A DNA stretch of 64,000 nucleotides from a virus (IMGVR_UViG_3300045999_008996:1-64000); one strand, 5' to 3'. Positions 45,463-60,925 are shown, counted from the stretch's first letter. Numbers and translations: made by a program. The notes: generated by a model not told the origin, from the sequence alone.

Positions 45463-45498
45463 ACTACTAAGACACTTTCAAGGTGAGTAACTTTAATG
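45463..45498 (-). repeat. 36-bp repeat, copy 1
   Basis: Variable loop CTTG. It fills the gap between the HNH endonuclease stop (TAA lies inside the repeat) and the YETWN gene; the nearest ATG touches the repeat, the likely true start is 48 bp further. Confidence 0.9.
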
Positions 45499-45915
45499 GA
45501 TGCGGTCCTGAATATCATTGAGGACCGTAGATAAGACTTCCACACTATCCTCACCGTTCTCTTCTAACTGTTGCATAACGTCTTGCAGTTGGGGTAGAAT
45601 AGCAGTGGTAATCTGTGGCACTCTGATAATACTCATTTCGCCCAGATGCTTATACTTTAGAGGTCTTCCTCCAGCAATAGTTTTGGGACGAAACTTACTG
45701 TCTTTTTTAGACTTTTCAATGTGGCATTTGTTACATAAAAGTTGGCACTTTGATAACTCTTCTAACAGAACTTCCTTAGGTTTACTATAACCTGCAGCAA
45801 TATTGAATGACTTTGTAGAAGGGTCAATATGGTCAAACTCTAATGCTTCTGTGCAACCACATTCTACACACTTTCCACCCAACTTTTCAATTAGAATTTC
45901 CCTTAATAAGTTCAT
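45493..45915 (-). CDS. HNH homing endonuclease
   Basis: A 140-residue free-standing HNH nuclease: zinc pairs Cys16/Cys19 and Cys61/Cys64, HNH core EFDHIDPSTK (His29) and LLCNKCHIEKS (His65). The C-terminal half (RPLKYKHLGEMS onwards) probably binds DNA. Such genes are selfish elements in T4-like genomes. A late promoter nested inside a long inverted repeat stands just before the ATG (see 45918-45979). Confidence 0.88.
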   Translation of the reverse strand: MNLLREILIEKLGGKCVECGCTEALEFDHIDPSTKSFNIAAGYSKPKEVLLEELSKCQLLCNKCHIEKSKKDSKFRPKTIAGGRPLKYKHLGEMSIIRVPQITTAILPQLQDVMQQLEENGEDSVEVLSTVLNDIQDRIH

Positions 45916-45917
45916 AG

Positions 45918-45979
45918 GTATTTTGATAACTTAATACGTCGTTATTTATAGGTTTTTTGAGGTATTACGTTATCAAAAC
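45918..45979 (-). promoter_or_regulatory. late promoter nested in a hairpin (HNH gene)
   Basis: Minus strand: upstream arm GTTTTGATAACGTAATACC (45979-45961), loop with TATAAATA (45950-45943), downstream arm ending 3 bp before the ATG region. The arms pair 10 bp, one mismatch, 6 bp. Read-through RNA would hide the translation start; RNA begun at the late promoter lacks the first arm. This is the T4 I-TevI/soc arrangement. Confidence 0.75.
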
Positions 45980-46013
45980 TTAAACGCCTTATTTGGTATA
46001 AATTGCTACCAAA

Positions 46014-46187
46014 TTACCATCTATCGGGTGTACTTAGGTCTTCTACGTAAGCATCACACTTCTCTGCAGGTTCCAACTTGAAGAGTTTCTCCCAGTCAAT
46101 TTGATGTGGGTCGAAGTCAGGAAACGCAGAGATATCTAGAGTGATGCGATAACGAACCTTCTGTGCCTGAGTGTATGCTACTGACAT
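46014..46187 (-). CDS. small conserved cyanophage protein, 57 aa
   Basis: MSVAYTQAQKVRYRITLDIS; ends LSTPDRW. A clear AGGAG lies 9 bp before the ATG, and a near-perfect early promoter is 28 bp upstream of the start. Function unknown; an immediate-early role is suggested by the promoter. Confidence 0.8.
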   Translation of the reverse strand: MSVAYTQAQKVRYRITLDISAFPDFDPHQIDWEKLFKLEPAEKCDAYVEDLSTPDRW

Positions 46188-46214
46188 AAGTGCGCTCCTG
46201 TGTGTTATGAAGGT

Positions 46215-46243
46215 ACTATAAGATGCCTGGGCGAAAATGTCAA
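46215..46243 (-). promoter_or_regulatory. sigma70-type early promoter
   Basis: Minus strand: TTGACA (46238-46243), 17-bp spacer, TATAGT (46215-46220), followed by a leader with AGGAG for the 57-aa gene. One of the best host-type promoters in the window. Confidence 0.85.
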
Positions 46244-46314
46244 TGGTCTGGGGGTATTTAGGCGGTCCTGGTGGATTTAAGCAGGGGAATTGTGAGGATT
46301 TTGTGACCCTGTGG

Positions 46315-46344
46315 TTGACAAAAGTGCTGTTCTTATGTTATGCT
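46315..46344 (+). promoter_or_regulatory. plus-strand early-type promoter
   Basis: Plus strand: TTGACA (46315-46320), 17-18 bp, TTATGCT (46338-46344). The -10 surround TTATGTTATGCTCGG nearly equals that of the minus-strand promoter at 44673. It points against all genes of the window. Confidence 0.6.
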
Positions 46345-46570
46345 CGGTAAGAAGACAAGACCTCGACACGTTTATAATGTATCAGCACACATTCTCTGGC
46401 ACATTATAAGATAATAGAGACGATTAAAGGCACTTAATTGATACGAATTCATATCATTATCACACATTAATAACAATAATTATCAGGCATTTAATTCGAA
46501 CGTTTATATTTAAATTGATATTTTTAATTGATTTTATTGTTTTTTTAACGTTATTTTGGCATAAAAGCAT
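46345..46570. other. AT-rich non-coding stretch, candidate RNA or origin
   Basis: The 419 bp from 46188 to 46606 is the longest gap without a gene. The left part holds two divergent promoters. The rest is very AT-rich, has no frame longer than about 10 codons after the plus promoter, contains TATAAT-like strings and ends at a strong hairpin. It may encode a plus-strand RNA of about 230-250 nt or be a replication/regulatory site. No known RNA family recognised. Confidence 0.4.
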
Positions 46571-46595
46571 AAAAAAAGAGGGTAGAAGTACCCTC
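46571..46595 (-). terminator. rho-independent terminator
   Basis: Minus strand: stem GAGGGTA/TACCCTC with a 4-base loop (46578-46595) and then seven T. It ends the cluster 46607-47725. On the plus strand the stem is followed only by a weak U-rich run. Confidence 0.9.
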
Positions 46596-46606
46596 TCTAT
46601 CTTATA

Positions 46607-46843
46607 TCAATCAATCGCTAATCTGTACCTTGCATAATCCTCTGCATCAGATCTTTTACGGAATCGTGCTTCTTCTCCTTCAAATCTAAGAGGCAAATAC
46701 CTATACTTCTTGCCTTCCTTAGTCATTACAATTCGGGAGAATAGATGCAGTGAGTAACTACCATCCTCCGTTCTTTGTGCTTCTTTCTTTACAATGAAAG
46801 GCAGAACTTGTTGGTCGTTGAATGAGGACTTAGAGAGTAACAT
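46607..46843 (-). CDS. small protein, 78 aa
   Basis: MLLSKSSFNDQQVLPFIVKK; basic, predicted alpha/beta. The C-terminus FRKRSDAEDYARYRLAID is a helix like that in small phage proteins that compare two strands. Last gene before a terminator. Function unknown. Confidence 0.7.
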   Translation of the reverse strand: MLLSKSSFNDQQVLPFIVKKEAQRTEDGSYSLHLFSRIVMTKEGKKYRYLPLRFEGEEARFRKRSDAEDYARYRLAID

Positions 46844-46866
46844 TTCGATTTAAGAGTGTAGGATTA

Positions 46867-47058
46867 TCAGGAGAATCGTGATGCAAACTTAAGTGCATCT
46901 TTTTCTTTTGTATAAGTCTTGAACTCTTTAGTCACCCAGTAAGCATCACCTCGCAGAGTGTTTTCTTTGAACACATCAACCTGAACTGAGAACTTGTTAT
47001 TATACTCTCTGATGTAAACTCTGGTATCACCAATCTTTGGACGTTCCATGGTTTGCAT
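46867..47058 (-). CDS. small protein, 63 aa
   Basis: MQTMERPKIGDTRVYIREYN; beta strands then a helix (KEKDALKFASRFS), a plan shared with its neighbours at 46607 and 47075. A start at the second Met (47049) is possible. Function unknown. Confidence 0.7.
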   Translation of the reverse strand: MQTMERPKIGDTRVYIREYNNKFSVQVDVFKENTLRGDAYWVTKEFKTYTKEKDALKFASRFS

Positions 47059-47074
47059 ATTCTTTTGCTTGGTT

Positions 47075-47209
47075 TTAATTGGTGATCAATTCAGCAGGAC
47101 TACCACACGATTTGTAGAACTCAATCATACGATTTGCTTCCTCTAGTGTAGAGAACGTTTGCGTCCTCCATTGTTGTTGATAAGGTGTAAAGTAACGGAT
47201 TTTGAACAT
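47075..47209 (-). CDS. small conserved cyanophage protein, 44 aa
   Basis: MFKIRYFTPYQQQWRTQTFS, a type common in cyanophages, ending CGSPAELITN. The frame is open to 47263 but homologous proteins I know start at MFKIRYF, so that start was used. Function unknown. Confidence 0.75.
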   Translation of the reverse strand: MFKIRYFTPYQQQWRTQTFSTLEEANRMIEFYKSCGSPAELITN

Positions 47210-47219
47210 TTTGTTTGAT

Positions 47220-47387
47220 TCAGTTAGAGTGAAGAATGGTGAGCATCTTCTGGTAATACTCATCTGCTTCTACTTCACATTGATGAGACTGTGTTGCATC
47301 TTCAATCTCGTATTGTTTCATACTCAGAGAGTGAATTACGCTGTCTAGAAGATTAGTCAGTGCTTCAATCTTTTGTTCGTTAGTCAT
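47220..47387 (-). CDS. small helical protein, 55 aa
   Basis: MTNEQKIEALTNLLDSVIHS; a single long amphipathic helix pattern. Its ATG shares a base with the stop of the upstream 112-aa gene. Function unknown. Confidence 0.7.
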   Translation of the reverse strand: MTNEQKIEALTNLLDSVIHSLSMKQYEIEDATQSHQCEVEADEYYQKMLTILHSN

Positions 47388-47725
47388 CAGTTAAGCACCA
47401 TACCTTCAGTGAAAGGAATTGTGTTACCGTTATCAATCACAAACCATTCAAAATCACGTTGAAAGATACGGGCATCATTTCCGTGCTCTTTCAGAATAGC
47501 ATTGAGACGTGATTTGGTTGTTGGAGTTTTATACCCACAGGTGTAAAGTTCAAGGAAGGTATCACCAATCGTTGCGATATGATTGCCATGCAGATAAACA
47601 TATGAAGCATCACGTTCGGGCGAATAGAGAACTTCAGTGTTGTCAGACTTCCAGTCTTTGCAGTTGGTAATAGCATTGTTCATTTTGGATTCAATAACTC
47701 GCATGGTTGGAGATTCAGTGGTCAT
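47387..47725 (-). CDS. conserved phage protein, 112 aa
   Basis: A family frequent in marine phages: VYLHGNHIATIGD, TTKSRLNAIL and a C-terminal FVIDNGNTIPFTEGMVL. The ATG used adjoins the 36-bp repeat; MNNAITN (residue 15) is an alternative start. Function unknown. Confidence 0.8.
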   Translation of the reverse strand: MTTESPTMRVIESKMNNAITNCKDWKSDNTEVLYSPERDASYVYLHGNHIATIGDTFLELYTCGYKTPTTKSRLNAILKEHGNDARIFQRDFEWFVIDNGNTIPFTEGMVLN

Positions 47726-47761
47726 ACTACTAGGACACTTTCAAGGTGAGTAACTTTAATT
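47726..47761 (-). repeat. 36-bp repeat, copy 2
   Basis: Loop CTTG, followed directly by ATGACCAC. It heads the five-gene cluster 46607-47725. Confidence 0.93.
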
Positions 47762-47766
47762 GCGAC

Positions 47767-47949
47767 TTACAGAGAAAATACTTTAGATGTCACAAGTTGG
47801 GAATCTTGATCATACTTTTCATAAGACCAAGTACCTTCGGTTTGTTCAACATAAGAGTGAACATTGTCGTTACAATCTTCCTTCCAAAAGGCACCAGTTT
47901 CGGGTTGGAAGAAATAACCAGATGCGATAAGTGCGTCAGTGAATGTCAT
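47767..47949 (-). CDS. small protein, 60 aa
   Basis: MTFTDALIASGYFFQPETGA, acidic, aromatic. Start chosen at the only ATG in frame; a TTG at 47973 would be longer. It is the second gene behind repeat copy 3. Function unknown. Confidence 0.65.
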   Translation of the reverse strand: MTFTDALIASGYFFQPETGAFWKEDCNDNVHSYVEQTEGTWSYEKYDQDSQLVTSKVFSL

Positions 47950-47976
47950 TGTGATTTCAGCGTTAAGTAACAATAA

Positions 47977-48186
47977 TCAGGCAGCGATTGCAGACTCTAG
48001 ACATACCTCACGGGTTTCGAGTAGAACATAATCACACTCAGATTCCAGTTCCTTCAGGTAGGCATTGGCAGCAGAGAAACAATCAAACAAGCGGAGAGAT
48101 CTGAAGTTCTCACCTTCATAATCAAATCCACCGATAACAGCGTAGACAGACATTTTGGACATTTGAGACATTTGGGAAGTGGTCAT
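47977..48186 (-). CDS. small protein, 69 aa
   Basis: MTTSQMSQMSKMSVYAVIGG; the Met/Ser-rich first 11 residues look like translated leader, and MSVYAVIGGFDY (48153) is a good alternative start. The core resembles small alpha/beta cyanophage proteins. Function unknown. Confidence 0.7.
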   Translation of the reverse strand: MTTSQMSQMSKMSVYAVIGGFDYEGENFRSLRLFDCFSAANAYLKELESECDYVLLETREVCLESAIAA

Positions 48187-48222
48187 ACTACTAGGACACT
48201 TTCAAGGTGAGTAACTTTAATT
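48187..48222 (-). repeat. 36-bp repeat, copy 3
   Basis: Loop CTTG, followed by ATGACCAC. The upstream 46-aa gene uses the TAA inside the repeat as its stop. Confidence 0.93.
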
Positions 48223-48357
48223 GGTCGTCACATATGGTCCTTGAACATCACAAAACTCTAGAAGAAAGTAATCAATAGTGACGCCAAGTTCATTTGCAAA
48301 CTGTAGATTTTCTTGATATTGTTCCTGAGAAAGAATGTAGAAATCAGTCTCAATCAT
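48217..48357 (-). CDS. small acidic protein, 46 aa
   Basis: MIETDFYILSQEQYQENLQF; its stop is the TAA within repeat copy 3, and its start overlaps the end of the next upstream gene by 8 bp. Function unknown. Confidence 0.6.
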   Translation of the reverse strand: MIETDFYILSQEQYQENLQFANELGVTIDYFLLEFCDVQGPYVTTN

Positions 48358-48499
48358 GGTCGATTTGTCCTCCTTGAAGTTCAACATTGTCTAGTACAGT
48401 AACAATCTGCTGGTTTGGAGTAAGGTAGTCGATTTGCAGAACATTCGGCGCGATTTCAGTTGCTCCGATAATCGTAGATGCTAACAGGATTTCAATCAT
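48350..48499 (-). CDS. small protein, 49 aa
   Basis: MIEILLASTIIGATEIAPNV; the hydrophobic N-terminus could be a signal peptide or membrane segment (residues 3-15). ATGA-coupled to the upstream gene. Function unknown. Confidence 0.6.
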   Translation of the reverse strand: MIEILLASTIIGATEIAPNVLQIDYLTPNQQIVTVLDNVELQGGQIDHD

Positions 48500-48645
48500 T
48501 GTTGCGGTGAGATAATGTCTGCTACAGTGTGCAATGTATTGGAAGTGATGTTGCGAACTCCAGGTGAGAGTATCATCGCAACAATGAAGATTAGTGTAAA
48601 TGTCTTCACTTTACAAGGAGACTTAAATGTAAGACTTTTTGCCAT
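48496..48645 (-). CDS. small membrane protein, 49 aa
   Basis: MAKSLTFKSPCKVKTFTLIF, with one transmembrane helix at about residues 15-30 after a basic N-terminus. Similar proteins occur in many cyanophages. Overlaps both neighbours by four and one bases. Function unknown. Confidence 0.7.
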   Translation of the reverse strand: MAKSLTFKSPCKVKTFTLIFIVAMILSPGVRNITSNTLHTVADIISPQQ

Positions 48646-48878
48646 CAGTTAATGACATCATACTTCAGGGATTTGACACACCAACCCGTGTTGTCAGAGA
48701 TACAATCGACAAGATCTTCCTCACTCGGAGGTGCCCAAAGGCAAGATTTTGCATCATCTACGATCTCTTTCTTCTCATACTCAGTGAGATCTTCATAGTC
48801 GAAATCGAACTCAATTTCAGTGATTTTGTAGTAGTTCATACTTTTAGTGTTAGTCAGGGTTTCAGTGGAAGTGGTCAT
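48645..48878 (-). CDS. small acidic protein, 77 aa
   Basis: The first 13 residues (MTTSTETLTNTKS) are low-complexity; MNYYKITEIEFDF at 48839 is a likely true start. The rest is acidic with two Cys. First gene behind repeat copy 4. Function unknown. Confidence 0.65.
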   Translation of the reverse strand: MTTSTETLTNTKSMNYYKITEIEFDFDYEDLTEYEKKEIVDDAKSCLWAPPSEEDLVDCISDNTGWCVKSLKYDVIN

Positions 48879-48914
48879 ACTACTAGGACACTTTGGAGGT
48901 GAGTAACTTTAATT
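48879..48914 (-). repeat. 36-bp repeat, copy 4
   Basis: Loop CTCC, followed by ATGACCAC. The upstream gene ends with the TAA inside the repeat. Confidence 0.93.
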
Positions 48915-49118
48915 GAACTCGATGTTCCAGTCAACATCTGCAGTAAGATTGACCCAAAAGTGATTCTTACCGTTTGCAGAGGTTAGAAACACTTTGTTTC
49001 CGTGATGTTGCTCCACAATACATTCATTATTGCGGTTCATTAAGTTACAGAAACGATTCTGTGCTTTCTTACTCTTGGGTGTCACAAATGCAGTCATCAT
49101 ATTCAGGTTGTTGTCCAT
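48909..49118 (-). CDS. small protein, 69 aa
   Basis: MDNNLNMMTAFVTPKSKKAQ; beta-rich with NECIVEQHHGNKVFLTS. A start at Met7/Met8 is possible. Flanked by repeats on both sides. Function unknown. Confidence 0.65.
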   Translation of the reverse strand: MDNNLNMMTAFVTPKSKKAQNRFCNLMNRNNECIVEQHHGNKVFLTSANGKNHFWVNLTADVDWNIEFN

Positions 49119-49154
49119 ACTACTAGGACACTTTAGAGGTGAGTAACTTTAATT
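49119..49154 (-). repeat. 36-bp repeat, copy 5
   Basis: Loop CTCT, followed directly by the ATG of the 69-aa gene. Confidence 0.93.
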
Positions 49155-49165
49155 GACGTAGAGTT

Positions 49166-49522
49166 TCAGTTACGCATCAGGGCAAGTGCATCATTCTCAC
49201 TGATGCTATCCTCAGGCAGTTGGATATTGCGAGCACAGGCAACTGCATCAGCAAAATTATCAAAAGTGCCAAAGGATTTCTGATTACCACACCAGCAACC
49301 TTTGTACTCATAAAACATTGCTTCGACTGAGAATACATCACCTTTTGTTTTAGAATCTACACTGTGCTTGATGTACACTTTACCGTCATATCGGGTGTAC
49401 TTATCAAACATATTGCTCTTGAAAGTACGAATGAAATCAGCGATAGACTCAGCAGTCAGATTGATATTCTGAGAGAACAGATTTGCGTAATGAACTGTCA
49501 TTTTAGTGGTTTCAGTGGTCAT
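49166..49522 (-). CDS. small protein, 118 aa
   Basis: MTTETTKMTVHYANLFSQNI; alternative start MTVHYANL at Met8. Central KGCWCGNQKSFGTF and a helical tail. Not recognised. It stands alone between repeats 5 and 6. Confidence 0.65.
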   Translation of the reverse strand: MTTETTKMTVHYANLFSQNINLTAESIADFIRTFKSNMFDKYTRYDGKVYIKHSVDSKTKGDVFSVEAMFYEYKGCWCGNQKSFGTFDNFADAVACARNIQLPEDSISENDALALMRN

Positions 49523-49558
49523 ACTACTAGGACACTTTGGAGGTGAGTAACTTTAATT
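49523..49558 (-). repeat. 36-bp repeat, copy 6
   Basis: Loop CTCC, followed by ATGACCAC. The MutH-like gene stop (TGA) abuts it. Confidence 0.93.
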
Positions 49559-50148
49559 CAGAACAGATTGCGACCGAATTGACCACACAAATAGAATGCC
49601 ATTCCTTTATCCTTAAGGGTCACATCTGCAAAGGTCAGAGGTACATAGCGACCGTTGGTTTTAGATGCTTTGGTGCGAATCTGCAGAAGTCCGTTAGGAC
49701 CAGTGATGGTAGAAAGTTCTTTGCCTGCATCGAAAAGTGTGCGGATGCTGTTACAAATGAACTCATAATCCTCACGCAATTCTTGATAGTGTGCAGCATG
49801 AGTTTCTTCATTCAGAATAACACTGCCCACATAATCGTTGTTGCGAGTGAATCCAACATATACAGTTTGCTTCAGTTTCTGTCCAACCTTGCTATCATCA
49901 AATGACACTGCATCTTCGATGATTTCAGATAGACAATGCTTCAACTGTGTGGCAGCAATAGATTCACCAACTGTAAAAGTCTTAATTTCTCCATCCTCCA
50001 AATCTTTCAGGTCGGAGGAGTTAGGAACTCCGAGGGCAGTTTCTAACAGTTGCCCGCGAGCACCTTTGTTCTTGCCAGGTTTCTCAAATGCACTGAAGTC
50101 AGTTACATTCAGTTTGGCAAATACTTCAAGGGTGGTTAGTTTAGTCAT
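49558..50148 (-). CDS. MutH/Sau3AI-type GATC endonuclease
   Basis: A 196-residue protein (E. coli MutH: 229). The fold markers follow MutH in order: KGARGQLLE with Glu36, then Asp46 and GEIKTF with Glu54/Lys56 (E-x-K), QKLK with Lys91, and a C-terminal LLQIRTKAS block that aligns with MutH EYLQIRPKAA. This family nicks or cuts GATC depending on adenine methylation. A Dam-type methylase lies at 60920. The ATG at 50148 is preferred over a TTG at 50175. Substrate specificity is inferred. Confidence 0.82.
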   Translation of the reverse strand: MTKLTTLEVFAKLNVTDFSAFEKPGKNKGARGQLLETALGVPNSSDLKDLEDGEIKTFTVGESIAATQLKHCLSEIIEDAVSFDDSKVGQKLKQTVYVGFTRNNDYVGSVILNEETHAAHYQELREDYEFICNSIRTLFDAGKELSTITGPNGLLQIRTKASKTNGRYVPLTFADVTLKDKGMAFYLCGQFGRNLF

Positions 50149-50175
50149 GGTAAAATTAGGAAGTGAAATCACCAA

Positions 50176-50346
50176 TCAGTCAACAACAGAGTAACAAGCA
50201 ACCCAGGAAGGAATCCCAGAGAGTGATAACGAACCATTGCGAGCATCGCAATAGTCTTCTGCCTCTTTTTCAGAGTAGAAAGGTCCAATGTACTCTGGAG
50301 AATCGAGTGCTTCAGACCAAAATCGAACGGTAAAAGTGTTTCTCAT
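50176..50346 (-). CDS. small protein, 56 aa
   Basis: MRNTFTVRFWSEALDSPEYI; short alpha/beta protein ending CYSVVD. It is the only repeat-headed gene with no second Met downstream, so it must start at the repeat-proximal ATG. First gene of the MutH pair. Function unknown. Confidence 0.7.
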   Translation of the reverse strand: MRNTFTVRFWSEALDSPEYIGPFYSEKEAEDYCDARNGSLSLSGIPSWVACYSVVD

Positions 50347-50382
50347 ACTACTAGGACACTTTAGAGGTGAGTAACTTTAATT
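50347..50382 (-). repeat. 36-bp repeat, copy 7
   Basis: Loop CTCT; followed directly by the ATG of the 56-aa gene, which with the MutH-like gene forms its unit. Confidence 0.93.
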
Positions 50383-50524
50383 ACTTGAAAGTTCCATTGA
50401 CACCAACAACCTTTGCAGTAGGATTGCGTGCTTGTGCAGTTTCGCGGGCATCTTTTGGAGAGTTAGCATACACTTCCTCCTTGAAGACTTTACCGCCAAC
50501 GTATAACTCAACAATGTACTTCAT
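50381..50524 (-). CDS. small conserved phage protein, 47 aa
   Basis: MKYIVELYVGGKVFKEEVYA, ending AKVVGVNGTFK; a compact alpha/beta plan (strand, strand, helix ARETAQAR, strand) common in small phage proteins. ATGA-coupled to the upstream gene. Function unknown. Confidence 0.72.
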   Translation of the reverse strand: MKYIVELYVGGKVFKEEVYANSPKDARETAQARNPTAKVVGVNGTFK

Positions 50525-50715
50525 AGTGTTTGAAACTCCTGTGCTTCTTTGATGTTAGAATTGTAGTATTTGGTGATTAGATCATTACACAATGGTTTCC
50601 ATTCTTCATCAATACCAGAGTGCTCACAATCTCGTGCTTGATATAACAAACGCAGTATGCAAGTTTCCTCATCTTTTGTGAACTTAACGCGATTGAAAGT
50701 GTAACCGTCAGTCAT
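50521..50715 (-). CDS. small protein, 64 aa
   Basis: MTDGYTFNRVKFTKDEETCI; helical. An ATG at 50715 is used rather than the TTG six bases upstream. ATGA overlap with the 47-aa gene. Function unknown. Confidence 0.68.
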   Translation of the reverse strand: MTDGYTFNRVKFTKDEETCILRLLYQARDCEHSGIDEEWKPLCNDLITKYYNSNIKEAQEFQTL

Positions 50716-50717
50716 AA

Positions 50718-50885
50718 TCAAACAGGGGTAACTTCAACGGAACGGATAAGATTTGTGCGGTCTTGTGCTAGGTAATCATCAGCGATTTTACCACAAGATG
50801 AACGCGATTGAATGAACTTTTCTTCGTATAGGTTCTCATCTTCATCAGGAACCCAATACTCAATCAGCATACGATAAGTGTTCAT
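50718..50885 (-). CDS. small protein, 55 aa
   Basis: MNTYRMLIEYWVPDEDENLY; acidic, alpha/beta. ATGA overlap with the upstream 82-aa gene. Function unknown. Confidence 0.68.
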   Translation of the reverse strand: MNTYRMLIEYWVPDEDENLYEEKFIQSRSSCGKIADDYLAQDRTNLIRSVEVTPV

Positions 50886-51133
50886 CAATAGTGTGCTTCA
50901 GAAGTGTCAAGAACTTCGCTGTACTTAGCGATACCATCATAGCAACGCTTTGCCATTTCAGAATCACCCTCAGCGACATAACCTTTCAGAAACTCGAAGC
51001 AGTATTTGATACGCAGTTCGGGTGCAACTGCAGCGAGTTGTTGTTGACGACGCTCGTAAGCGGCGTTGTATGCAAACATTTCACGATCTTCGAGAGAGAT
51101 GTTGTGAAACTTGCGGTCGGTAGTGTTGTTCAT
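50885..51133 (-). CDS. small protein, 82 aa
   Basis: MNNTTDRKFHNISLEDREMF; helical, with repeated Tyr and Arg, ending SEAHY. First gene of a four-gene overlapping cluster behind repeat copy 8. Function unknown. Confidence 0.7.
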   Translation of the reverse strand: MNNTTDRKFHNISLEDREMFAYNAAYERRQQQLAAVAPELRIKYCFEFLKGYVAEGDSEMAKRCYDGIAKYSEVLDTSEAHY

Positions 51134-51169
51134 ACTACTAGGACACTTTGGAGGTGAGTAACTTTAATT
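51134..51169 (-). repeat. 36-bp repeat, copy 8
   Basis: Loop CTCC; followed directly by an ATG. Heads the cluster 50381-51133. Confidence 0.93.
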
Positions 51170-51174
51170 ACCCG

Positions 51175-51429: not shown

Positions 51430-51599
51430 TCATCCTCTTCATAAGGGAACATTTCGTCATACTCTTCGTCAGTTAGAGTAAGATACTGAACATTAGCGTT
51501 CTTGTGCTCTTCAGTATACATTAACTGATAGTGTGCGAAAGAAGATGAGTCGCTGCTAGCATACTCCAGCAGACCATCAACGAAACAAAGGTAGTTCAT
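51426..51599 (-). CDS. small acidic protein, 57 aa
   Basis: MNYLCFVDGLLEYASSDSSS with a very acidic tail (YEEDE). Overlaps both neighbours by four bases. Function unknown. Confidence 0.66.
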   Translation of the reverse strand: MNYLCFVDGLLEYASSDSSSFAHYQLMYTEEHKNANVQYLTLTDEEYDEMFPYEEDE

Positions 51600-52027: not shown

Positions 52028-52063
52028 ACTACTAGGACACTTTGGGGGTGAGTAACTTTAATT
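52028..52063 (-). repeat. 36-bp repeat, copy 9
   Basis: Loop CCCC, the only copy with this version. Followed directly by an ATG; heads the three-gene cluster 51175-52027. Confidence 0.93.
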
Positions 52064-52980: not shown

Positions 52981-53016
52981 ACTACTGGGACACTTTGGAG
53001 GTGAGTAACTTTAATT
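52981..53016 (-). repeat. 36-bp repeat, copy 10
   Basis: Loop CTCC, with one substitution (CCCAGTAGT). Followed directly by the ATG of the ligase-like gene. Confidence 0.92.
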
Positions 53017-53587: not shown

Positions 53588-53623
53588 ACTACTAGGACAC
53601 TTTAGAGGTGAGTAACTTTAATT
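53588..53623 (-). repeat. 36-bp repeat, copy 11 (no adjoining ATG)
   Basis: Loop CTCT. The usual ATG is GTG and opens no gene; the next ATG is 38 bp downstream, after a small hairpin GTGAGG/CCTCAC (53570-53587). Shows that the repeat does not need a touching start codon. Confidence 0.92.
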
Positions 53624-54437: not shown

Positions 54438-55682
54438 TCACCGCCGCACCACACTGATAGCAGGTTCTCCCTTCTGGAAGATAGTATCAACAACCGACTG
54501 CACAGCGCGAGCGGTGCTGATACCAACCTTGCTGTAGACAGGAATGCAAACAAGACCGAACGATTTGCTATATTGTGCCAGGTTGCCAGGTTCGATACGT
54601 CCATCACGCAAACCTTTGGCATCATCGTGATGCAAACGGATGCAACGTCCGATGGTCTGACTGATACCAATGAAGTCCATATTACGCAGGAACAACACTG
54701 CTTCCAAACCACTCACATTGATACCCTCAGCGAGGATGCTGTGGTGTAGAACAACGAACTTCTTATCGTTATCCTTACCCCAGGCAGATAGGGTATCAAA
54801 GAATACCTCGCGGTTGACCTTGCGTCCATCAATAACTGCACCAGTCTTAGCAGTAATATACATCCAAGAGAAACCACGTTCCTCTAGTTCAGCACAGAAA
54901 TCAGTTTCCGACACCAGCGAAACGATTTGCTTGGTTGCCTTAGAACAAATTAGAATCTTACCGACTTTGTTCTCATCAATCGTTTCCAGCAGATTCTCTG
55001 CATCTCGGTCAAAGTTAGTCTGCTTGCCAGTTACCATAGGGAGTTGCTTGACGATAACTTTAGGAGGCACAATATAACCACCCTCAACCAACTCAGGAGC
55101 AGGAACTTTGCAGATTACCTGACCATAAACAGCAGCATCATTCATCCCAGGTTTGCCAGTGGCAAGGGAATGTTTAGGAGTTGCAGTAAAGAAGTAGCAG
55201 CGACGTGCGTTAGCAGCAAAGTGCTCAGTTGCAGGGAAAAAGTGACGCTGAACACTGTTATGTGCTTCATCAAAGTAAATTGTATCCACATCAACTTCTG
55301 CCACTTGAAGACGCGACAGAGAGTTGTAGGTGGTTACAATCAGGCGATGATTGTCAGCATTTGCATTAACCCAGTTGCGAATCTCACGCGGGCGAGTAGA
55401 AGATTCGTGATGAGTTTCACCACTGTGAATATGAAAAACTTTTGCGTTGGTGATAAACTCCATAAACTCAGCGGAGAGTTGCTCTGCCAGGAGAATACGA
55501 GGGGCAACAACAACAATCGTCTGTGGAGTTTCAGACTGCAACTCACGCAGACAATCATAGATCATCTTGAGAGTCTTACCACCACCAGTAGGAACAATAA
55601 TTTGACCCTTATTATGCTTCGCCATAGCAGCAACACCACGTTCTTGGTGCGGACGGAGTTGGATTTGCATTGGTATCATCAT
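54438..55682 (-). CDS. UvsW-like SF2 DNA helicase
   Basis: A 414-residue superfamily 2 helicase: Walker A PTGGGKT (31-37), Walker B FDEAH (137-141), motif III FTATP (165-169), motif VI QTIGRCIRL (342-350). T4 UvsW (about 500 residues) unwinds branched intermediates and helps switch replication modes; a cyanophage UvsW-type role is likely but type I restriction-like SF2 helicases look similar. MQIQLRPHQERG at residue 5 may be the real start. Confidence 0.85.
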   Translation of the reverse strand: MMIPMQIQLRPHQERGVAAMAKHNKGQIIVPTGGGKTLKMIYDCLRELQSETPQTIVVVAPRILLAEQLSAEFMEFITNAKVFHIHSGETHHESSTRPREIRNWVNANADNHRLIVTTYNSLSRLQVAEVDVDTIYFDEAHNSVQRHFFPATEHFAANARRCYFFTATPKHSLATGKPGMNDAAVYGQVICKVPAPELVEGGYIVPPKVIVKQLPMVTGKQTNFDRDAENLLETIDENKVGKILICSKATKQIVSLVSETDFCAELEERGFSWMYITAKTGAVIDGRKVNREVFFDTLSAWGKDNDKKFVVLHHSILAEGINVSGLEAVLFLRNMDFIGISQTIGRCIRLHHDDAKGLRDGRIEPGNLAQYSKSFGLVCIPVYSKVGISTARAVQSVVDTIFQKGEPAISVVRR

Positions 55683-55720
55683 CTAGTATTAGAGCACTTT
55701 GGAGGTGAGTAACTTTAATT
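55683..55720 (-). repeat. 36-bp repeat, copy 12 (diverged 3' end)
   Basis: The first 25 bases match (loop CTCC), but the end reads CTCTAATACTAGATG instead of TCCTAGTAGTATG. It heads the helicase gene. Confidence 0.85.
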
Positions 55721-55915
55721 CGCGGTCTGTTTATATACCTTCAGTTTATCAATCACACCTTGCATTGTAGCACGATTGTATCCATTCGCAAAGGATGGAC
55801 TTCTCTCAGTTTCGGGATTAGAACTGAAATCAACATTCTTAGCGACATTAACACCCTCTTGAAGAAGGCGAATGACATCATCAAAGACAAAATCAGGGAT
55901 TTGGATGTAATTCAT
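55715..55915 (-). CDS. small protein, 66 aa
   Basis: MNYIQIPDFVFDDVIRLLQE; helical, with a NGYNRATMQGVIDKL end. Frame open to 55954, but MNYIQIPDF is the better start. The upstream terminator implies separate transcription or read-through. Function unknown. Confidence 0.68.
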   Translation of the reverse strand: MNYIQIPDFVFDDVIRLLQEGVNVAKNVDFSSNPETERSPSFANGYNRATMQGVIDKLKVYKQTAN

Positions 55916-55942
55916 TGTTCTCAGTGGTTTGATAAGTAAAGA

Positions 55943-55979
55943 CAAAAATAGCACGCTTAGAGGTCAATCTGAGCGTGCT
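55943..55979 (-). terminator. rho-independent terminator
   Basis: Minus strand: stem AGCACGCT/AGCGTGCT extended by AGA/TCT around a short loop (55950-55979), followed by ATTTTTG. It ends the 51-aa gene. Confidence 0.8.
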
Positions 55980-55991
55980 GGTAGGGTTTAA

Positions 55992-56147
55992 TCAACCACC
56001 AAACATTTCATCAAACAACCAATCACCAGAACGCTCTTTTTCTTCCCAGACTTTGTTAGCGTTCTCAGCAATTATTGCTTGCTCAATCTTCATATCAAGG
56101 GCAGATTTGGTCATGAACCAGTTACCGTTGCGGTCTTGCCAGAGCAT
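55992..56147 (-). CDS. small protein, 51 aa
   Basis: MLWQDRNGNWFMTKSALDMK; helical, acidic end (GDWLFDEMFGG). It begins 20 bp after repeat copy 13 and is followed by a terminator, a one-gene unit. Function unknown. Confidence 0.68.
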   Translation of the reverse strand: MLWQDRNGNWFMTKSALDMKIEQAIIAENANKVWEEKERSGDWLFDEMFGG

Positions 56148-56167
56148 TGCGTGAGTGTTGTGCTTAC

Positions 56168-56203
56168 ACTACTAGGACACTTTGGAGGTGAGTAACTTTA
56201 ATT
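56168..56203 (-). repeat. 36-bp repeat, copy 13 (no adjoining ATG)
   Basis: Loop CTCC. The ATG position is GTG, followed by TAAGCACAACACTCA, a leader shared with copy 15, and the ATG of the 51-aa gene. Confidence 0.92.
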
Positions 56204-56207
56204 GGAG

Positions 56208-56885
56208 TCAACTTCCAGATGCTTGTGCTGCTGCTTTTGCTTTTGCTCTCATTTGAACGGCAACTTTACTGTTCCACTTTCCACCTTTTTCTTCGTATTC
56301 TCTACGCATTTGTGCAAGAATCTCAGTAGCAGACTTCTTAGTCTTTTGTGCTGCTGCTGTTTTCTCTCTGTTTCTTGCAGCATCTCTCTCCTGGCGTGTC
56401 ATAGGAGCACCACTATCAGTTCTCCATTGTCTGCGTGGTGCTGCTGGTTTCTTCTCTTGCTGTGGTTTTGCTTGAGCGATTGCTTGTGATGCAGTCTTTG
56501 GTTGCTCTTTACCACTTTCTTTTGCTTTACGCTCAAGATATGCTTTACGCTGTCTTTCTTTAGCAGTCATTGCAGCACTTCCTTGAGTTCCTGCAGTTCC
56601 TGGTTTCAGTTCTGTTGCACCTTGACCTCTTCCAGGTGCAGGTGCAGAAGAACCTCTTTGCTGACCAACATCTTTGCGTGTTTTGTATGGTCCAACAGGT
56701 TCGGTTCTTCCACCACCAACTGCTCTTACTCTGCGAATTTCAACAGGAGACTTTTTGCGCTCTTTACCTATTCTACCACCAGCACCAGTTTTGATGATGG
56801 AAGCACCACCACCCCAACCAAGTTGACTAGCAGCATCGGCATCAGATGCTTCACAAAGAGACATAAACTGTTGAAATGTACGCAT
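56208..56885 (-). CDS. basic internal head protein candidate, 225 aa
   Basis: The N-terminus MRTFQQFMSLCE has the shape of the T4 capsid-targeting peptide and ends in L-C-E, the gp21 cleavage consensus. The rest is Ala/Gly/Lys/Arg/Gln-rich, mostly disordered with a basic helix near residues 100-130 and 150-210, as expected for a protein packaged with DNA and injected. A TCTAAATA box at 56912-56919 may be a late promoter. T4 internal proteins are short, basic and also non-homologous. Confidence 0.72.
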   Translation of the reverse strand: MRTFQQFMSLCEASDADAASQLGWGGGASIIKTGAGGRIGKERKKSPVEIRRVRAVGGGRTEPVGPYKTRKDVGQQRGSSAPAPGRGQGATELKPGTAGTQGSAAMTAKERQRKAYLERKAKESGKEQPKTASQAIAQAKPQQEKKPAAPRRQWRTDSGAPMTRQERDAARNREKTAAAQKTKKSATEILAQMRREYEEKGGKWNSKVAVQMRAKAKAAAQASGS

Positions 56886-56914
56886 TGGTCTATCTAAACA
56901 CTACTTTTTAGTAT

Positions 56915-57583
56915 TTAGATGTCATCATTGTTCAATTCTTCTACCAATATAATATCTTTATGTTTTTTTCTTTTACCTTTTGCAACCTGATAGATTAGTG
57001 AATCATTATAATTATTTTGTTTACACCAATTATGTAAACCAGTCATCTCTAGTGTTCTACCATCTTCAAATGTAATGATCCAGGTTTTCCATAATCTATT
57101 TGTTTTATGCGTTTCTGTTGGTTTTCTTTGTTTTAATCTGTGTTTTTTCATTTCCTCTGGATTATCCTTTAGTTTTTTCCATCTTTCCGCGTAATATTTT
57201 GAAATCCTTTCTTTGTTTTTTTTGTAGTAATCAGATGCTTTCTTTTTCAATTCATCTTCACTATATTTTTTCGTCACTTTAGATAAATGTCTCTTCTGCT
57301 CTTCAGTCATAACTCTACCTGAAGATCCATCACCACCATCAGTTTTATTATGGAGAATACCAGTTCCTAAATCTTTTCTTCCAAAGACAGCAATCATATA
57401 GATTTCGTGCTTAAATGCTTCTTCTTCAGTAAGATTTTGCTTAAGAAATATTATTTTAGATTTATCTTTAGGAGATTTGGTGTCATTTTTTCTCCTTCTA
57501 TATGCTCGGTTTCCTTTACCTTTACCAATGTAGTAAGGAGTTCTATCCTCACGCAGATAAGCGTAGGTATAATAGTTATTCAT
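56915..57583 (-). CDS. GIY-YIG homing endonuclease
   Basis: A 222-residue Seg-like nuclease: YTYAYLRED (GIY position), YYIGKGKGNRAY (YIG with the catalytic Arg region), HEIYMIAVFG with the metal-binding Glu, then Lys-rich DNA-binding helices and a C-terminal motif that recalls NUMOD-type DNA binding. The Met at 57583 is preferred to 57604 because the late promoter would start RNA at about 57601. More AT-rich than its neighbours, as for a mobile gene. Confidence 0.88.
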   Translation of the reverse strand: MNNYYTYAYLREDRTPYYIGKGKGNRAYRRRKNDTKSPKDKSKIIFLKQNLTEEEAFKHEIYMIAVFGRKDLGTGILHNKTDGGDGSSGRVMTEEQKRHLSKVTKKYSEDELKKKASDYYKKNKERISKYYAERWKKLKDNPEEMKKHRLKQRKPTETHKTNRLWKTWIITFEDGRTLEMTGLHNWCKQNNYNDSLIYQVAKGKRKKHKDIILVEELNNDDI

Positions 57584-57589
57584 TCTTGT

Positions 57590-57670
57590 CTTAAAGAGTC
57601 GCATTTATATTTATATAATAAGAGGGACATTTCTGCCCCTTTTCATTTGCTTTTAGATGCGACTCTTAAG
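57590..57670 (-). promoter_or_regulatory. late promoter nested in a hairpin (GIY-YIG gene)
   Basis: Minus strand: arm CTTAAGAGTCGCAT (57670-57657), then a small hairpin (AGGGGCA/TGTCCCT), TATAAATA (57615-57608), then the pairing arm ATGCGACTCTTTAAG (57604-57590) just before the start. Fourteen pairs with one bulged base. Same plan as at the HNH gene. Confidence 0.75.
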
Positions 57671-57679
57671 CACTAATAT

Positions 57680-57889
57680 TTAGTCTTCATCTTTAAGTTT
57701 ATCTTGGGCGGATTTGCTTACTTTACAAACTCTGTCGGTTGCATAAAATTGTTTCACACGTTCGCGACGAGTAGCAAGAAGCAAATCATACTCTTCTTGC
57801 TGTTGCTTACTAAAAGTGAAATCCTGTCGCCTCCAAGTCTCTTTCAGTTCTTTGATGTAAGGAAGCACGTTAGGGATGTGTTCAGTCAT
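57680..57889 (-). CDS. small conserved cyanophage protein, 69 aa
   Basis: MTEHIPNVLPYIKELKETWR; helical, with QQQEEYDLLLATRRERVKQF and a KVSKSAQDKL end. The GIY-YIG gene has been inserted between it and the 225-aa gene. A GACAGTT/AACTGTC hairpin precedes it (57935-57950). Function unknown. Confidence 0.72.
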   Translation of the reverse strand: MTEHIPNVLPYIKELKETWRRQDFTFSKQQQEEYDLLLATRRERVKQFYATDRVCKVSKSAQDKLKDED

Positions 57890-57948
57890 TGAGTATATTA
57901 AAGGATGAGGGGTCAGTGTGGAGAGTTTAGTGGACAGTTTAGAAACTG

Positions 57949-58083
57949 TCAGTAGTCAATGTTAGACTTAAGATATTCATTCATATTAAAATCATCTTGT
58001 TCTTCAATCAATTCAACAAGATCTTTTTCATTAAAGTCAAATCCAGCGATTTCTTCAATTTGAATGTCGTCGAAGCAGTCCAT
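57949..58083 (-). CDS. small acidic protein, 44 aa
   Basis: MDCFDDIQIEEIAGFDFNEK; strongly acidic and helical (pI very low), resembling a DNA mimic in charge only. It begins 18 bp after repeat copy 14. Function unknown. Confidence 0.66.
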   Translation of the reverse strand: MDCFDDIQIEEIAGFDFNEKDLVELIEEQDDFNMNEYLKSNIDY

Positions 58084-58101
58084 AACTTGTTTGTTGCTTA
58101 C

Positions 58102-58137
58102 ATTACTAGGACACTTTAGAGGTGAGTAACTTTAATT
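58102..58137 (-). repeat. 36-bp repeat, copy 14 (no gene at the adjoining ATG)
   Basis: Loop CTCT, 3' end CTAGTAAT. The ATG formed there is followed at once by TAA; the real gene starts 18 bp on. Confidence 0.9.
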
Positions 58138-58713
58138 GCGACTCATAATTGCTCTCATTTCTCTTCTTTTTTGTGCCTGCTGAGCACTTGCTTCGTGCTC
58201 CATTTCTCTCTGAGCATGTGCTTCTCTTGCTCTTTTTCTTGATAACTGACTTTTTGCAATCAATTTATTATAATAATTGGGTTCCATTGTAGGAGTTTGC
58301 TCAGTCTGCAATTCTCTCTTAATTTCCGATTTTAATGCTTCTCTTTCTCTTTGTGCAGATAATCTTTCTTTCTGTCTTGATTGATAATCGGAAACCTTTT
58401 GTTTTTGTGCTACCATTTGTTTCTTTTGTCTCTGACGAAGTTCTTGTCTTCGCTGTTGCAAATCTTCTGTGATTTTATTAACTGATTTTGCTAACTTTTT
58501 CAATCTCTTTGTTACTGCTTTTCCACCACTACGCTTTACAACTAACTTATCAATTTCTTTCTTTTTTGGTTTACCCAGTGGACCATCATAACTCTGGAGA
58601 GTATAAGAAATATTACCTTCACTATCTTTCTTATAAGTTCCAGGAACTGCATGTGGGGGAGTATCAGGTTTCTTACCTTCGCAGATTTGATAGAACTCTC
58701 TAAATGTCAGCAT
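58132..58713 (-). CDS. basic internal head protein candidate, 193 aa
   Basis: MLTFREFYQICE at the start has the capsid-targeting shape and ends in I-C-E (gp21 consensus). Then a conserved GKPKKKEIDKLVVKRSGG block, and residues 75-193 are a very long Arg/Lys/Gln/Glu coiled coil. A late promoter (AATAAATA) is 20 bp upstream, in keeping with a virion protein among early genes. Likely packaged and injected with DNA; inferred. Confidence 0.75.
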   Translation of the reverse strand: MLTFREFYQICEGKKPDTPPHAVPGTYKKDSEGNISYTLQSYDGPLGKPKKKEIDKLVVKRSGGKAVTKRLKKLAKSVNKITEDLQQRRQELRQRQKKQMVAQKQKVSDYQSRQKERLSAQREREALKSEIKRELQTEQTPTMEPNYYNKLIAKSQLSRKRAREAHAQREMEHEASAQQAQKRREMRAIMSRN

Positions 58714-58732
58714 TTTAATTATACTTTTTGAT

Positions 58733-58740
58733 TATTTATT
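58733..58740 (-). promoter_or_regulatory. probable late promoter (193-aa internal protein)
   Basis: AATAAATA on the minus strand, 20 bp before the ATG; one base from consensus. Confidence 0.55.
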
Positions 58741-58741
58741 T

Positions 58742-59008
58742 CTACTCAAATTCAAGTGCTCTATTTGATACTTTCATAGGTGGAGTTTGATATTCAGGAA
58801 GTGTAGAAGTTTCAACATATACTTCAATCTTAGTCTCTTTGTCCCAATGCCGAATTGCATTGGCGATGATGAAACAGTTAGTAATAAAAATACTCAAAAA
58901 CATCAAAAGGCGGATAAGTGCTACCTTATCCGCTTCTTTATCACATTTACTTGCTTTTTCTCCAAGTGCCTTAGCAAGCAACCGCCAGACAGTTTTGTTC
59001 TTCCTCAT
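58742..59008 (-). CDS. small membrane protein, 88 aa
   Basis: MRKNKTVWRLLAKALGEKAS, a basic amphipathic stretch, then one transmembrane helix at about residues 33-52 and a soluble tail. The cyanophage relatives I know begin at KTVWRLL, so 59008 is used rather than the ATG at 59032. Function unknown. Confidence 0.72.
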   Translation of the reverse strand: MRKNKTVWRLLAKALGEKASKCDKEADKVALIRLLMFLSIFITNCFIIANAIRHWDKETKIEVYVETSTLPEYQTPPMKVSNRALEFE

Positions 59009-59234
59009 AGATTGATTCTCTTGATTTAACATACTTTAAGTGTTTCCAATCTTCTTTGTAACAAACTACAAGCAATCTTTCATTCTTATGAATAGGACAA
59101 CATTCATAGTTTTCTTCATCTTTAGGGCGGACAATGTACTCAATGGTTATGTACTCATCTCCCTTAAAATAAACCCAACCTTCAACACCTTTTGTCCATT
59201 CAACATAATCATTGACTTGTGGTTTGTATGTCAT
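58971..59234 (-). CDS. small conserved cyanophage protein, 87 aa
   Basis: MTYKPQVNDYVEWTKGVEGW, with CCPIHKNERLLVVCY; a beta-barrel-like pattern and three conserved Cys. Frequent in cyanophages next to the YYYECEEF protein upstream. ATGA overlap with that gene. Function unknown. Confidence 0.78.
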   Translation of the reverse strand: MTYKPQVNDYVEWTKGVEGWVYFKGDEYITIEYIVRPKDEENYECCPIHKNERLLVVCYKEDWKHLKYVKSRESIYEEEQNCLAVAC

Positions 59235-59521
59235 ACAAAGAACGCATCTAATGGAGACTGCTTGATAGGCATTGTAGTATAGTTTCGCGTGTCGTTGATA
59301 TTTACACGAGCACCGATGGACTTACTATTGATGGGGAAGAAATACTCTCTGGTTTTGGTATTGTAGAAGGAGTGTATAGTTCTGGTCGGAGCACCATTAT
59401 TATAGACAAACTTGCGAGTGTTGCATAACCAAATACTGACAACATTTCGCTTGAACTCTTCACACTCATAATAGTATCCTTCGGGAGCAGAATAAGGAAG
59501 TGGGGGAACTTCAACAGTCAT
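59231..59521 (-). CDS. small conserved protein, 96 aa
   Basis: MTVEVPPLPYSAPEGYYYEC; beta-rich, with YNTKTREYFFPINSKSIGAR. The ATG overlaps the stop region of the coiled-coil gene (ATGACTGTTGA), which fixes the start although the frame is open further upstream. Function unknown. Confidence 0.75.
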   Translation of the reverse strand: MTVEVPPLPYSAPEGYYYECEEFKRNVVSIWLCNTRKFVYNNGAPTRTIHSFYNTKTREYFFPINSKSIGARVNINDTRNYTTMPIKQSPLDAFFV

Positions 59522-59678
59522 AGAATTTGTCACGCGACATATACTCAATTTGCTTCTGCAGTTGTGAGATTTCGTGTTCTTGTTCTGCAATTTTACTTTG
59601 CAGTTGTTCAATACGTTCTTGATACTGTGTCTTCAAATCAAAAACCATTTTATTGGTGTGAGCAACGTGGTGAGTCAT
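59511..59678 (-). CDS. small coiled-coil protein, 55 aa
   Basis: MTHHVAHTNKMVFDLKTQYQ, then heptads (RIEQLQSKIAEQEHEISQLQ) forming a coiled coil to residue 47. Overlaps the next gene by 11 bases. Function unknown. Confidence 0.7.
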   Translation of the reverse strand: MTHHVAHTNKMVFDLKTQYQERIEQLQSKIAEQEHEISQLQKQIEYMSRDKFYDC

Positions 59679-59680
59679 AA

Positions 59681-59923
59681 TCAGGTTGTAAAAGATTCAA
59701 CTACTGCAGATTCTACATCCTCAGCAAGAGCATAAGTCCTTGCGCTTAACACATTTTCACGAAGAGTGGTGTAATACTGTTCATAGAAGTTGTCATCATC
59801 TTCTGCAGCAATCAAATCAAAACATTCATTGTCGTTTTCCGCAATCACATTCCAAAGTCCACCATATTCACTGGAAGGAAAAGGAATGTAGTGGTCAACC
59901 AGATAAAGAAACTTTTGTGCCAT
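59681..59923 (-). CDS. small acidic protein, 80 aa
   Basis: MAQKFLYLVDHYIPFPSSEY; acidic alpha/beta protein ending VESAVVESFTT. It has its own early promoter (59947-59975) and heads a set of overlapping genes down to 58742. Function unknown. Confidence 0.75.
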   Translation of the reverse strand: MAQKFLYLVDHYIPFPSSEYGGLWNVIAENDNECFDLIAAEDDDNFYEQYYTTLRENVLSARTYALAEDVESAVVESFTT

Positions 59924-59946
59924 TTGTGTTTGAAAATTACTCCTTT

Positions 59947-59975
59947 AGTATAGGTTTAAGATTGCAGTTTGTCAA
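59947..59975 (-). promoter_or_regulatory. sigma70-type early promoter
   Basis: Minus strand: TTGACA (59970-59975), 17-bp spacer, TATACT (59947-59952), then AAAGGAG. The -35 box overlaps the stop codon of the 45-aa gene. Confidence 0.8.
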
Positions 59976-60109
59976 TAAAACTCTGCAAGATAATAGTCTA
60001 CAGTAACCTCCATTTTTGCCGCTTCGCGTTCAACTTCTTTCCAGAACTCTTCTGCTACTTTGTCCATTTCTGCTTGTTTGATAAGGTCGCGGAGTCGTTT
60101 CGGAATCAT
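59972..60109 (-). CDS. small helical protein, 45 aa
   Basis: MIPKRLRDLIKQAEMDKVAE; one or two charged helices. ATGA overlap upstream. Function unknown. Confidence 0.66.
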   Translation of the reverse strand: MIPKRLRDLIKQAEMDKVAEEFWKEVEREAAKMEVTVDYYLAEFY

Positions 60110-60240
60110 TTTAGTTGTTGAGTTGCTTGTTGACGATAGTATGATTTATAAAGAGCATCATCACGCTGGATTAGAAAGACATTCCAACCAAGAATGACTG
60201 CAAGACTAATCAATCCAGCGACAATGTGCTTTTTGTTCAT
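60106..60240 (-). CDS. small single-span membrane protein, 44 aa
   Basis: MNKKHIVAGLISLAVILGWN; transmembrane helix at residues 6-23 followed by a basic soluble tail ending QQATQQLK. Overlaps both neighbours by four bases. Function unknown. Confidence 0.68.
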   Translation of the reverse strand: MNKKHIVAGLISLAVILGWNVFLIQRDDALYKSYYRQQATQQLK

Positions 60241-60428
60241 TTAGAAGAAACTCCTGTGGGTTTGAAGATAAGATTAGCAAGAGCAATGATGGCAAAGTTC
60301 TGCCAGAAGGTCAAAGATACATTGAACCAAGACAGAATAAGTCCAAGCAACCACGCCTCAAAGAATAGACTTGCTGTTACAAGAACAACAGCAATAAAAA
60401 GAACGCCAAAAGCGGTAGTAGTTTTCAT
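60237..60428 (-). CDS. small two-span membrane protein, 63 aa
   Basis: MKTTTAFGVLFIAVVLVTAS; hydrophobic helices at about residues 6-34 and 39-56. Overlaps the 44-aa membrane gene by four bases. Function unknown; no holin evidence beyond topology. Confidence 0.72.
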   Translation of the reverse strand: MKTTTAFGVLFIAVVLVTASLFFEAWLLGLILSWFNVSLTFWQNFAIIALANLIFKPTGVSSK

Positions 60429-60431
60429 AGG

Positions 60432-60872
60432 TCAAACAGCAAGGGCAGCAGAGGGGATTTCAACGATTTCGGGAAGTTTGTTATCATCAAACTGGTGCAT
60501 ATTATAGCACACCCATTCACCATTGCGGAAGACATAGTGGAACTCTTCTGCTCCATCAGGCAGCAGATACTCACATAGTTCAGCATCAAGACGAGGAGGG
60601 CAATCTTCACCGCGCTGAGAGTAGTATTGAGGACCGTATTTTTGAGGTCCAACTCCTTTCACGCCAGGAATAATTTCTTCATTAGTCCAACATTCTTCGG
60701 ACCAGCAGGAACTCATATCTCCACCATCAATCAGTTCAGAAACTTTCTCTTTGGTATTGTAGTGCGTTTTCAGAATACGACCCAACCATTCAGGATAACC
60801 ATCCCAGTGGTGATAGGCAGAGAGAACAGAACCGTCAGAGAGTTCAATACCGATGCGAGAGCGGGTTGACAT
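60432..60872 (-). CDS. conserved phage protein, 146 aa (STRS/HWDGYP type)
   Basis: MSTRSRIGIELSDGSVLSAY with YHHWDGYPEWLGRIL, the signature of a very widespread phage protein family without a known function. Its C-terminal half is acidic and holds YVFRNGEWVCYN. First gene of the cluster behind repeat copy 15. Confidence 0.82.
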   Translation of the reverse strand: MSTRSRIGIELSDGSVLSAYHHWDGYPEWLGRILKTHYNTKEKVSELIDGGDMSSCWSEECWTNEEIIPGVKGVGPQKYGPQYYSQRGEDCPPRLDAELCEYLLPDGAEEFHYVFRNGEWVCYNMHQFDDNKLPEIVEIPSAALAV

Positions 60873-60889
60873 TTGAGTGTTGTGCTTAC

Positions 60890-60925
60890 ATTACTAGGAC
60901 ACTTTGGAGGTGAGTAACTTTAATA
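60890..60925 (-). repeat. 36-bp repeat, copy 15 (no gene at the adjoining ATG)
   Basis: Loop CTCC, 3' end CTAGTAAT, then GTAAGCACAACACTCA (as in copy 13) and the ATG of the 146-aa gene. The Dam gene ends with the TAA inside the repeat. Confidence 0.9.

Follow-up and report, generated by a model that had tools for sequence, protein, structure and literature searches.

The 64,000-nucleotide stretch of viral DNA analysed here (the window) belongs to a 222,563-bp record from a T4-like cyanophage, as recognized by its portal, sheath, terminase, scaffold and protease matches. Part of it carries 15 copies of a 36-base element at the heads of gene clusters, and these copies probably form a class of early-gene promoters in which a phage-specific factor recognizes a 9-nt box. 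A promoter with such an activator box would explain the strand, the position, the modular structure and the behaviour of the box, as judged from comparative sequence analysis. The first-pass annotation of this DNA had proposed either a phage-specific promoter class, perhaps for middle genes, or a shared leader RNA. The promoter class is the part best supported, by a –10-like TATAGT in relatives, the lack of a –35, the confinement to one region and the modular box; early genes are likelier than middle genes, given the synteny with hypothetical genes adjoining gp25/gp6 and what is reportedly known of the cyanophage Syn9.

Placement and anatomy of the element

Fourteen copies match the 36-mer with at most three mismatches, compared with none in 100 dinucleotide shuffles, and the fifteenth is degenerate in its right half and has two extra bases, so that all 15 lie where the first-pass annotation had located them (Table 1). 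All lie on the minus strand, in the direction of the genes, at cluster heads. The reported absence of the element from the 44-kb virion part extends to the whole record, which holds no further copy outside 45463-60925. The description of cluster-internal genes overlapping by ATGA was likewise borne out, with ATGA-type junctions found inside the clusters. ATG directly follows 11 of the 15 copies, in keeping with the 'usually ATG' of that annotation; the other four are followed by GTG, GTA, GTA and GTA, with the ORF start further down. The sequence 5' of AATT is unconserved and usually forms the last part of the gene before it; that gene often stops at the TAA within the AATTAA of the element.

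Table 1. Coordinates of the element copies and associated features in the window
Feature	Position	Strand	Remarks
Copy 1	45463..45498	-	2 mismatches; ATG adjacent at 45462
Copy 2	47726..47761	-	ATG adjacent; conserved protein (Kyano_Gp96, phrog_554) begins at second in-frame ATG
Copy 3	48187..48222	-	ATG adjacent
Copy 4	48879..48914	-	ATG adjacent
Copy 5	49119..49154	-	ATG adjacent
Copy 6	49523..49558	-	ATG adjacent
Copy 6, box TTACTCACC	49550-49542	-	
Copy 6, core AAAGTGTCC	49538-49530	-	
Copy 6, –10-like stretch TAGTAGTAT	49529-49521	-	
Copy 7	50347..50382	-	ATG adjacent, no other ATG nearby (MRNTFTVRFW...)
Copy 8	51134..51169	-	ATG adjacent
Copy 9	52028..52063	-	ATG adjacent
Copy 10	52981..53016	-	1 mismatch; heads DUF6267/phrog_455 gene
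Copy 11	53588..53623	-	adjacent GTG opens 6 codons only (dead end); ORF start 53549
Copy 12	55683..55720	-	right half degenerate (AAAGTGCTCTAATACTAG); heads helicase gene
Copy 13	56168..56203	-	GTA adjacent; ORF start 56147
Copy 14	58102..58137	-	then GTAAGC; ORF start 58083
Copy 15	60890..60925	-	then GTAAGC; ORF start 60872
Similar 100-nt stretches	44781-45112		two, 88% identical, 232 bp apart
118-aa protein	49166-49522		best candidate in box-factor search
First gene behind sigma70 promoter	61742..62686	-	phrog_2558; weak ParB-like and DUF6551 matches
Region with terminator-like hairpin and sigma70 promoter	62750-62790	-	hairpin GGAGGGTTGACAACCCTCT-TTTTT
Sigma70 promoter	62755..62782	-	perfect host-like TTGACA-16-TATAAT with TG; upstream end of element region

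Cross-phage alignment resolved the element into, in order, a 9-nt box (TTACTCACC in this phage), three free bases, AAAGYGTCC, one base, a TATAGT-like stretch, RTRAGCAC and CA-rich sequence, the shared core, three bases downstream of the box, being AAAGYGTCC-N-TATAGT-RTRAGCA. Positions are numbered from d0, the base after AAAGYGTCC, which places the TATAGT-like stretch at d1-d6. The 'variable 4-mer' of the first-pass annotation proved variable in three bases only, its C being the same in every copy. Conservation goes on past the core with or without an ATG: copies that lack an adjacent one have T at d3 (100%), A at d4 (97%), a purine at d7 (100%) and T at d8 (95%), and the constraint on these bases is therefore not solely coding.

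TATAGT is clean in relatives, whereas the same register in this phage reads AGTAGT, a poor version that counts against the promoter reading. TAGTAT, two bases further on, is the better candidate –10 in this phage (TAGTAT/TAGTGT, versus TATAGT in relatives). A TTGACA-like –35 at 16-18 bp is absent, the position reading GTTACT here and AGGGGG in S-SM2, and no element is among the strong sigma70 promoter matches of our scan.

Host-like TTGACA-17-TATAAT promoters lie mostly at 128-220 kb, with nearly none at cluster heads in 45-61 kb. Three classes would fit the genome: the elements at 45-61 kb, the host-like promoters mostly at 128-220 kb, and virion genes with TATAAATA, as given in the first reading. 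The perfect sigma70 promoter at the upstream end of the element region could possibly drive an immediate-early regulator. Its –35 TTGACA is included in a terminator-like hairpin, and its –10 TATAAT comes directly after that hairpin. Elsewhere in the window, the two similar 100-nt stretches lie over adjacent small ORFs and look like a recent tandem gene duplication.

A box that follows the phage

A 22-base exact core of the element was found on at least 117 IMG/VR stretches (at least 291 copies) and is also represented in cultured phages. In SynMITS9220M01 the 12 copies all fall within 36-50 kb of 190 kb, with other early-type genes on one side and gp25/gp6 on the other; S-B05 carries a cluster of 12 and 2 more; S-SM2 and AG-345-O18 share the core with a different box. 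When repeats were searched for without any pattern, the element came up in the syntenic region of this phage and of these four, and the element block is syntenic with the hypothetical-gene region adjoining gp25/gp6 in other cyanophages. The core is absent from 84,980 prokaryote genomes, one per species, and the element was not found in Syn9 and Bellamy. The pattern-free search returned other repeats in the syntenic region of Syn9 and S-CAM7, and Bellamy has a Syn9-like one. Because cultured phages carry versions of it and Syn9 reportedly has a novel early element, the earlier statement that no cyanophage element of this form had been described was too strong.

To compare boxes, loci were chosen by the core alone, giving 314 copies on 98 loci, with the locus as a proxy for the phage. 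Boxes before unrelated genes at one locus differ on average at 0.71 of 9 positions (67% identical), whereas those before the same gene family at different loci differ at 4.42 of 9 (5% identical), as random box pairs do (4.41 of 9; the lowest value among 1000 permutations was 4.10); in these figures the pairs are non-independent, and the constancy of the core is partly due to its being the search pattern. Since boxes are near-constant within a locus and random-like between loci before the same gene, the box tracks the phage and not the gene. We counted 28 box types in 76 loci, among them TTACTCACC, GGGGGGACG, TCTGGGGCC, ACTGGGCCC, TAGCTCACC, ACTGAGCCA and TTAGGATCG. Position 8 is C in 98/98 loci and position 4 is G in 93/98. 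The phage-specific box appears to be the new part of the element, and was beyond what the first-pass annotation could see. Against the promoter reading, two box types are mixed on a few contigs (L187, L203, L237, L263 and L266), where one or two copies carry a foreign box, such as GGGGGGACG among TCTGGGGCC; these copies are possibly recent imports.

Gene order is broken more often at elements than elsewhere. Adjacency on both sides is kept in 40% of pairs across elements versus 65% at ordinary junctions at 80-90% identity, and in 25% versus 55% at 70-80% identity, and pairs similar only upstream or only downstream of an element are abundant. This breakage makes the uniformity of the box within each phage more striking. 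It would also be expected if the element were mainly a recombination or cassette boundary whose repeats provide homology for cluster swaps and have no regulatory role. We regard that explanation as improbable, because swaps among phages with different boxes should mix the boxes, which are nearly homogeneous per phage, and because the fixed orientation, the fixed distance to the start, the TATAGT-like core and the restriction to cluster heads point to expression.

A search for the box factor, in which protein identity was compared with box difference, identified no cognate factor. The best candidate, a 118-aa protein, gave a partial rank correlation of –0.52 over 12 loci, a value that is not convincing given the many families compared and the non-independence of pairs. 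No DNA-binding (HTH) family was found among the early proteins scanned with Pfam.

Translation starts and the RNA 5' end

Of 42 scorable non-redundant gene families, 38 have the adjacent ATG in frame, and among the multi-member families without any ATG at d10-d40 this ATG is always kept in 9 of 12. The possibility that it is a mere piece of the –10 was therefore rejected for many genes. Many in-frame copies have a second ATG at d22-d31, and the homologues of several genes align only from this second ATG, as do most homologues of the DUF6267/phrog_455 gene. The S-SM2 gene coding MNTTEKLIF starts at d7 and its SynMITS9220M01 homologue, MSTFEKLIF, at d28, with equal N-termini. Genes without an adjacent ATG start mostly at d21-d33, with no frame preference. 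On this comparative evidence, the d7 ATG and the downstream ATG are both real start sites.

These starts suggest an RNA whose 5' end lies at d7 or earlier. A sigma70 –10 at TATAGT would put the RNA start near d13, ~6 nt downstream of where the adjacent ATG begins, and thus conflicts with the use of the d7 ATG as a start. The RNA would either be leaderless at the ATG or begin ~6 nt later, with read-through RNA supplying the ATG. Copies in S-B05 read CACTATAG, like T7-family promoters, and have a start near the TATA. If the element were the promoter of a single-subunit (T7-type) phage RNA polymerase, transcription beginning at the ATG would be accounted for, but this is very hard to credit, since no PF00940 polymerase was detected in this record, SynMITS9220M01, S-SM2 or S-B05 by a search whose T7 positive control scored 1e-109.

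A Shine-Dalgarno sequence precedes none of the 15 element-headed genes, versus 11/25 virion genes and 7/30 inner early genes. This lack, the genuine use of the adjacent ATG, the few terminators between early clusters, and the ATG positions, d7 exactly or else mostly d21-33, as if d7 were the RNA 5' end, would all suit an element that acts in RNA. Such an element, in the 5' part of long polycistronic early transcripts, would be a processing or translation signal and create a 5' end at the ATG or immediately before it. We nevertheless consider this unlikely. In the sole predicted hairpin two pairs are broken (70% and 77% paired) with no compensating change, and shuffled sequence folds as well; this hairpin was rejected. 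A DNA-binding factor accounts more readily for a 9-nt box that changes freely, and a trans RNA complementary to the box was also rejected, the box occurring outside elements only twice in the record, near chance. The broken hairpin weakens the shared leader RNA of the first-pass annotation too, although the use of the adjacent ATG as a start leaves it some probability. A Shine-Dalgarno or anti-Shine-Dalgarno role, considered for the CACCTCC of some copies, which resembles the 16S 3' end, was discarded because it varies at three bases and other phages have a different box in its place. Pairing of GTTACTCACC (10 nt) with the 16S sequence was dropped because other phages carry unrelated boxes.

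Under the favoured promoter reading, each copy would be an early-gene transcription start module composed of the box, three free bases, a AAAGTGTCC-(N)-TATAGT-like stretch and a CA-rich start. A phage-specific DNA-binding factor would read the box and, together with the shared core, recruit RNA polymerase, with transcription starting just downstream; a single factor could turn on the whole set of early clusters. The element boundary may double as a site of gene-cassette exchange between phages, and a box mismatched to the phage's own factor would get lost or rewritten. More tentatively, we hypothesize that T4-like cyanophages possess orthogonal early control, in which a shared core is combined with a private 9-bp address box, a rapidly diversifying factor and boxes rewritten in concert at every early promoter of a genome; such an address might limit cross-activation when phages co-infect and decide which exchanged cassettes can be expressed.

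Relation to known systems and implications

The Syn9 transcriptome study of Doron and colleagues (2016, ISME J) reportedly assigned early genes to a novel element, common in T4-like cyanophages, and middle genes to promoters of the host type. The biological role and genome region of that early element are probably the same as here. However, the early regions of Syn9 and Bellamy lack the element of this phage. They carry CGTGTATTCTATAAGAGTCAAAGG, a repeat that ends much like a Shine-Dalgarno and follows a GTGCCAGT/ACTGGCAC dyad. CGTGTATTCTATAAGAGTCAAAGG occurs 0 times in this record, 4 times in Syn9 (L135 46339 and 48608; L136 1050 and 3046) and 3 times in Bellamy (L138 10489-20743). Its end is AAAGGA, shortly before ATG, and it is preceded by hairpins and the GTGCCAGT...ACTGGCAC dyad, which is present in P-SSM2 and S-CAM7 too. 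In S-CAM7 (L158), small genes are preceded by two more families of repeats, ATGCCCTATACTAT(T/C)..ACATCAACACA and GCTACAATTCATTCATACCAAAGAAGA, at 5421-27188 and 28013-33396.

Should TATAGT be the –10, the centre of the 9-nt box would fall near –30, with no –35, much as in the T4 middle promoters (MotA box plus –10), whose 9-bp MotA box lies near –30. The box here differs from the MotA box and varies between phages, and the conserved AAAGTGTCC is additional; a MotA-like consensus was found neither in TTACTCACC nor in the 28 types across 76 other loci. Marine T4-like cyanophages are described, with reference to the Syn9 study, as being without T4-like middle promoters and motA and/or asiA (PMC5780444).

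Other phage repeats share some features with the element. The PeSLs (promoter early stem loops) of T4-type phages, which combine a host-like early promoter with a stem-loop (PMC4503421), are likewise a regulatory cassette repeated at module-shuffling sites in T4-like phages, but the element here has neither a stem-loop nor an early sigma70 promoter. The start-associated sequences (SAS) of cluster K mycobacteriophages, which contain AGGAG 3-7 bp from the start (PMC3203893), are also repeats in the non-structural half, in a single orientation and adjoining ATG starts; in contrast, the present element is without a Shine-Dalgarno (AGGAG by the start in 0/15) and has a promoter-like core. The intergenic repeats of halovirus HF2 are short, stand at cluster heads and had promoter activity in all nine tested, which makes them an analogue proven by experiment (PMC8707807). 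Their placement at cluster heads is alike, but they belong to an archaeal virus with archaeal promoters and are unrelated in sequence.

T4-like cyanophages are abundant ocean viruses, and the question addressed here is how their early genes are activated without host-like promoters or MotA/AsiA. A box that identifies the phage offers a direct handle on the missing factor. It also allows early genes to be told from other classes by their sequence alone, gene starts to be corrected, and metagenome fragments to be assigned to phage lineages. If the proposed control is true, it would be an unusually clear case of many regulatory sites of one genome changing in concert, and each virus would have its own early-gene control code.
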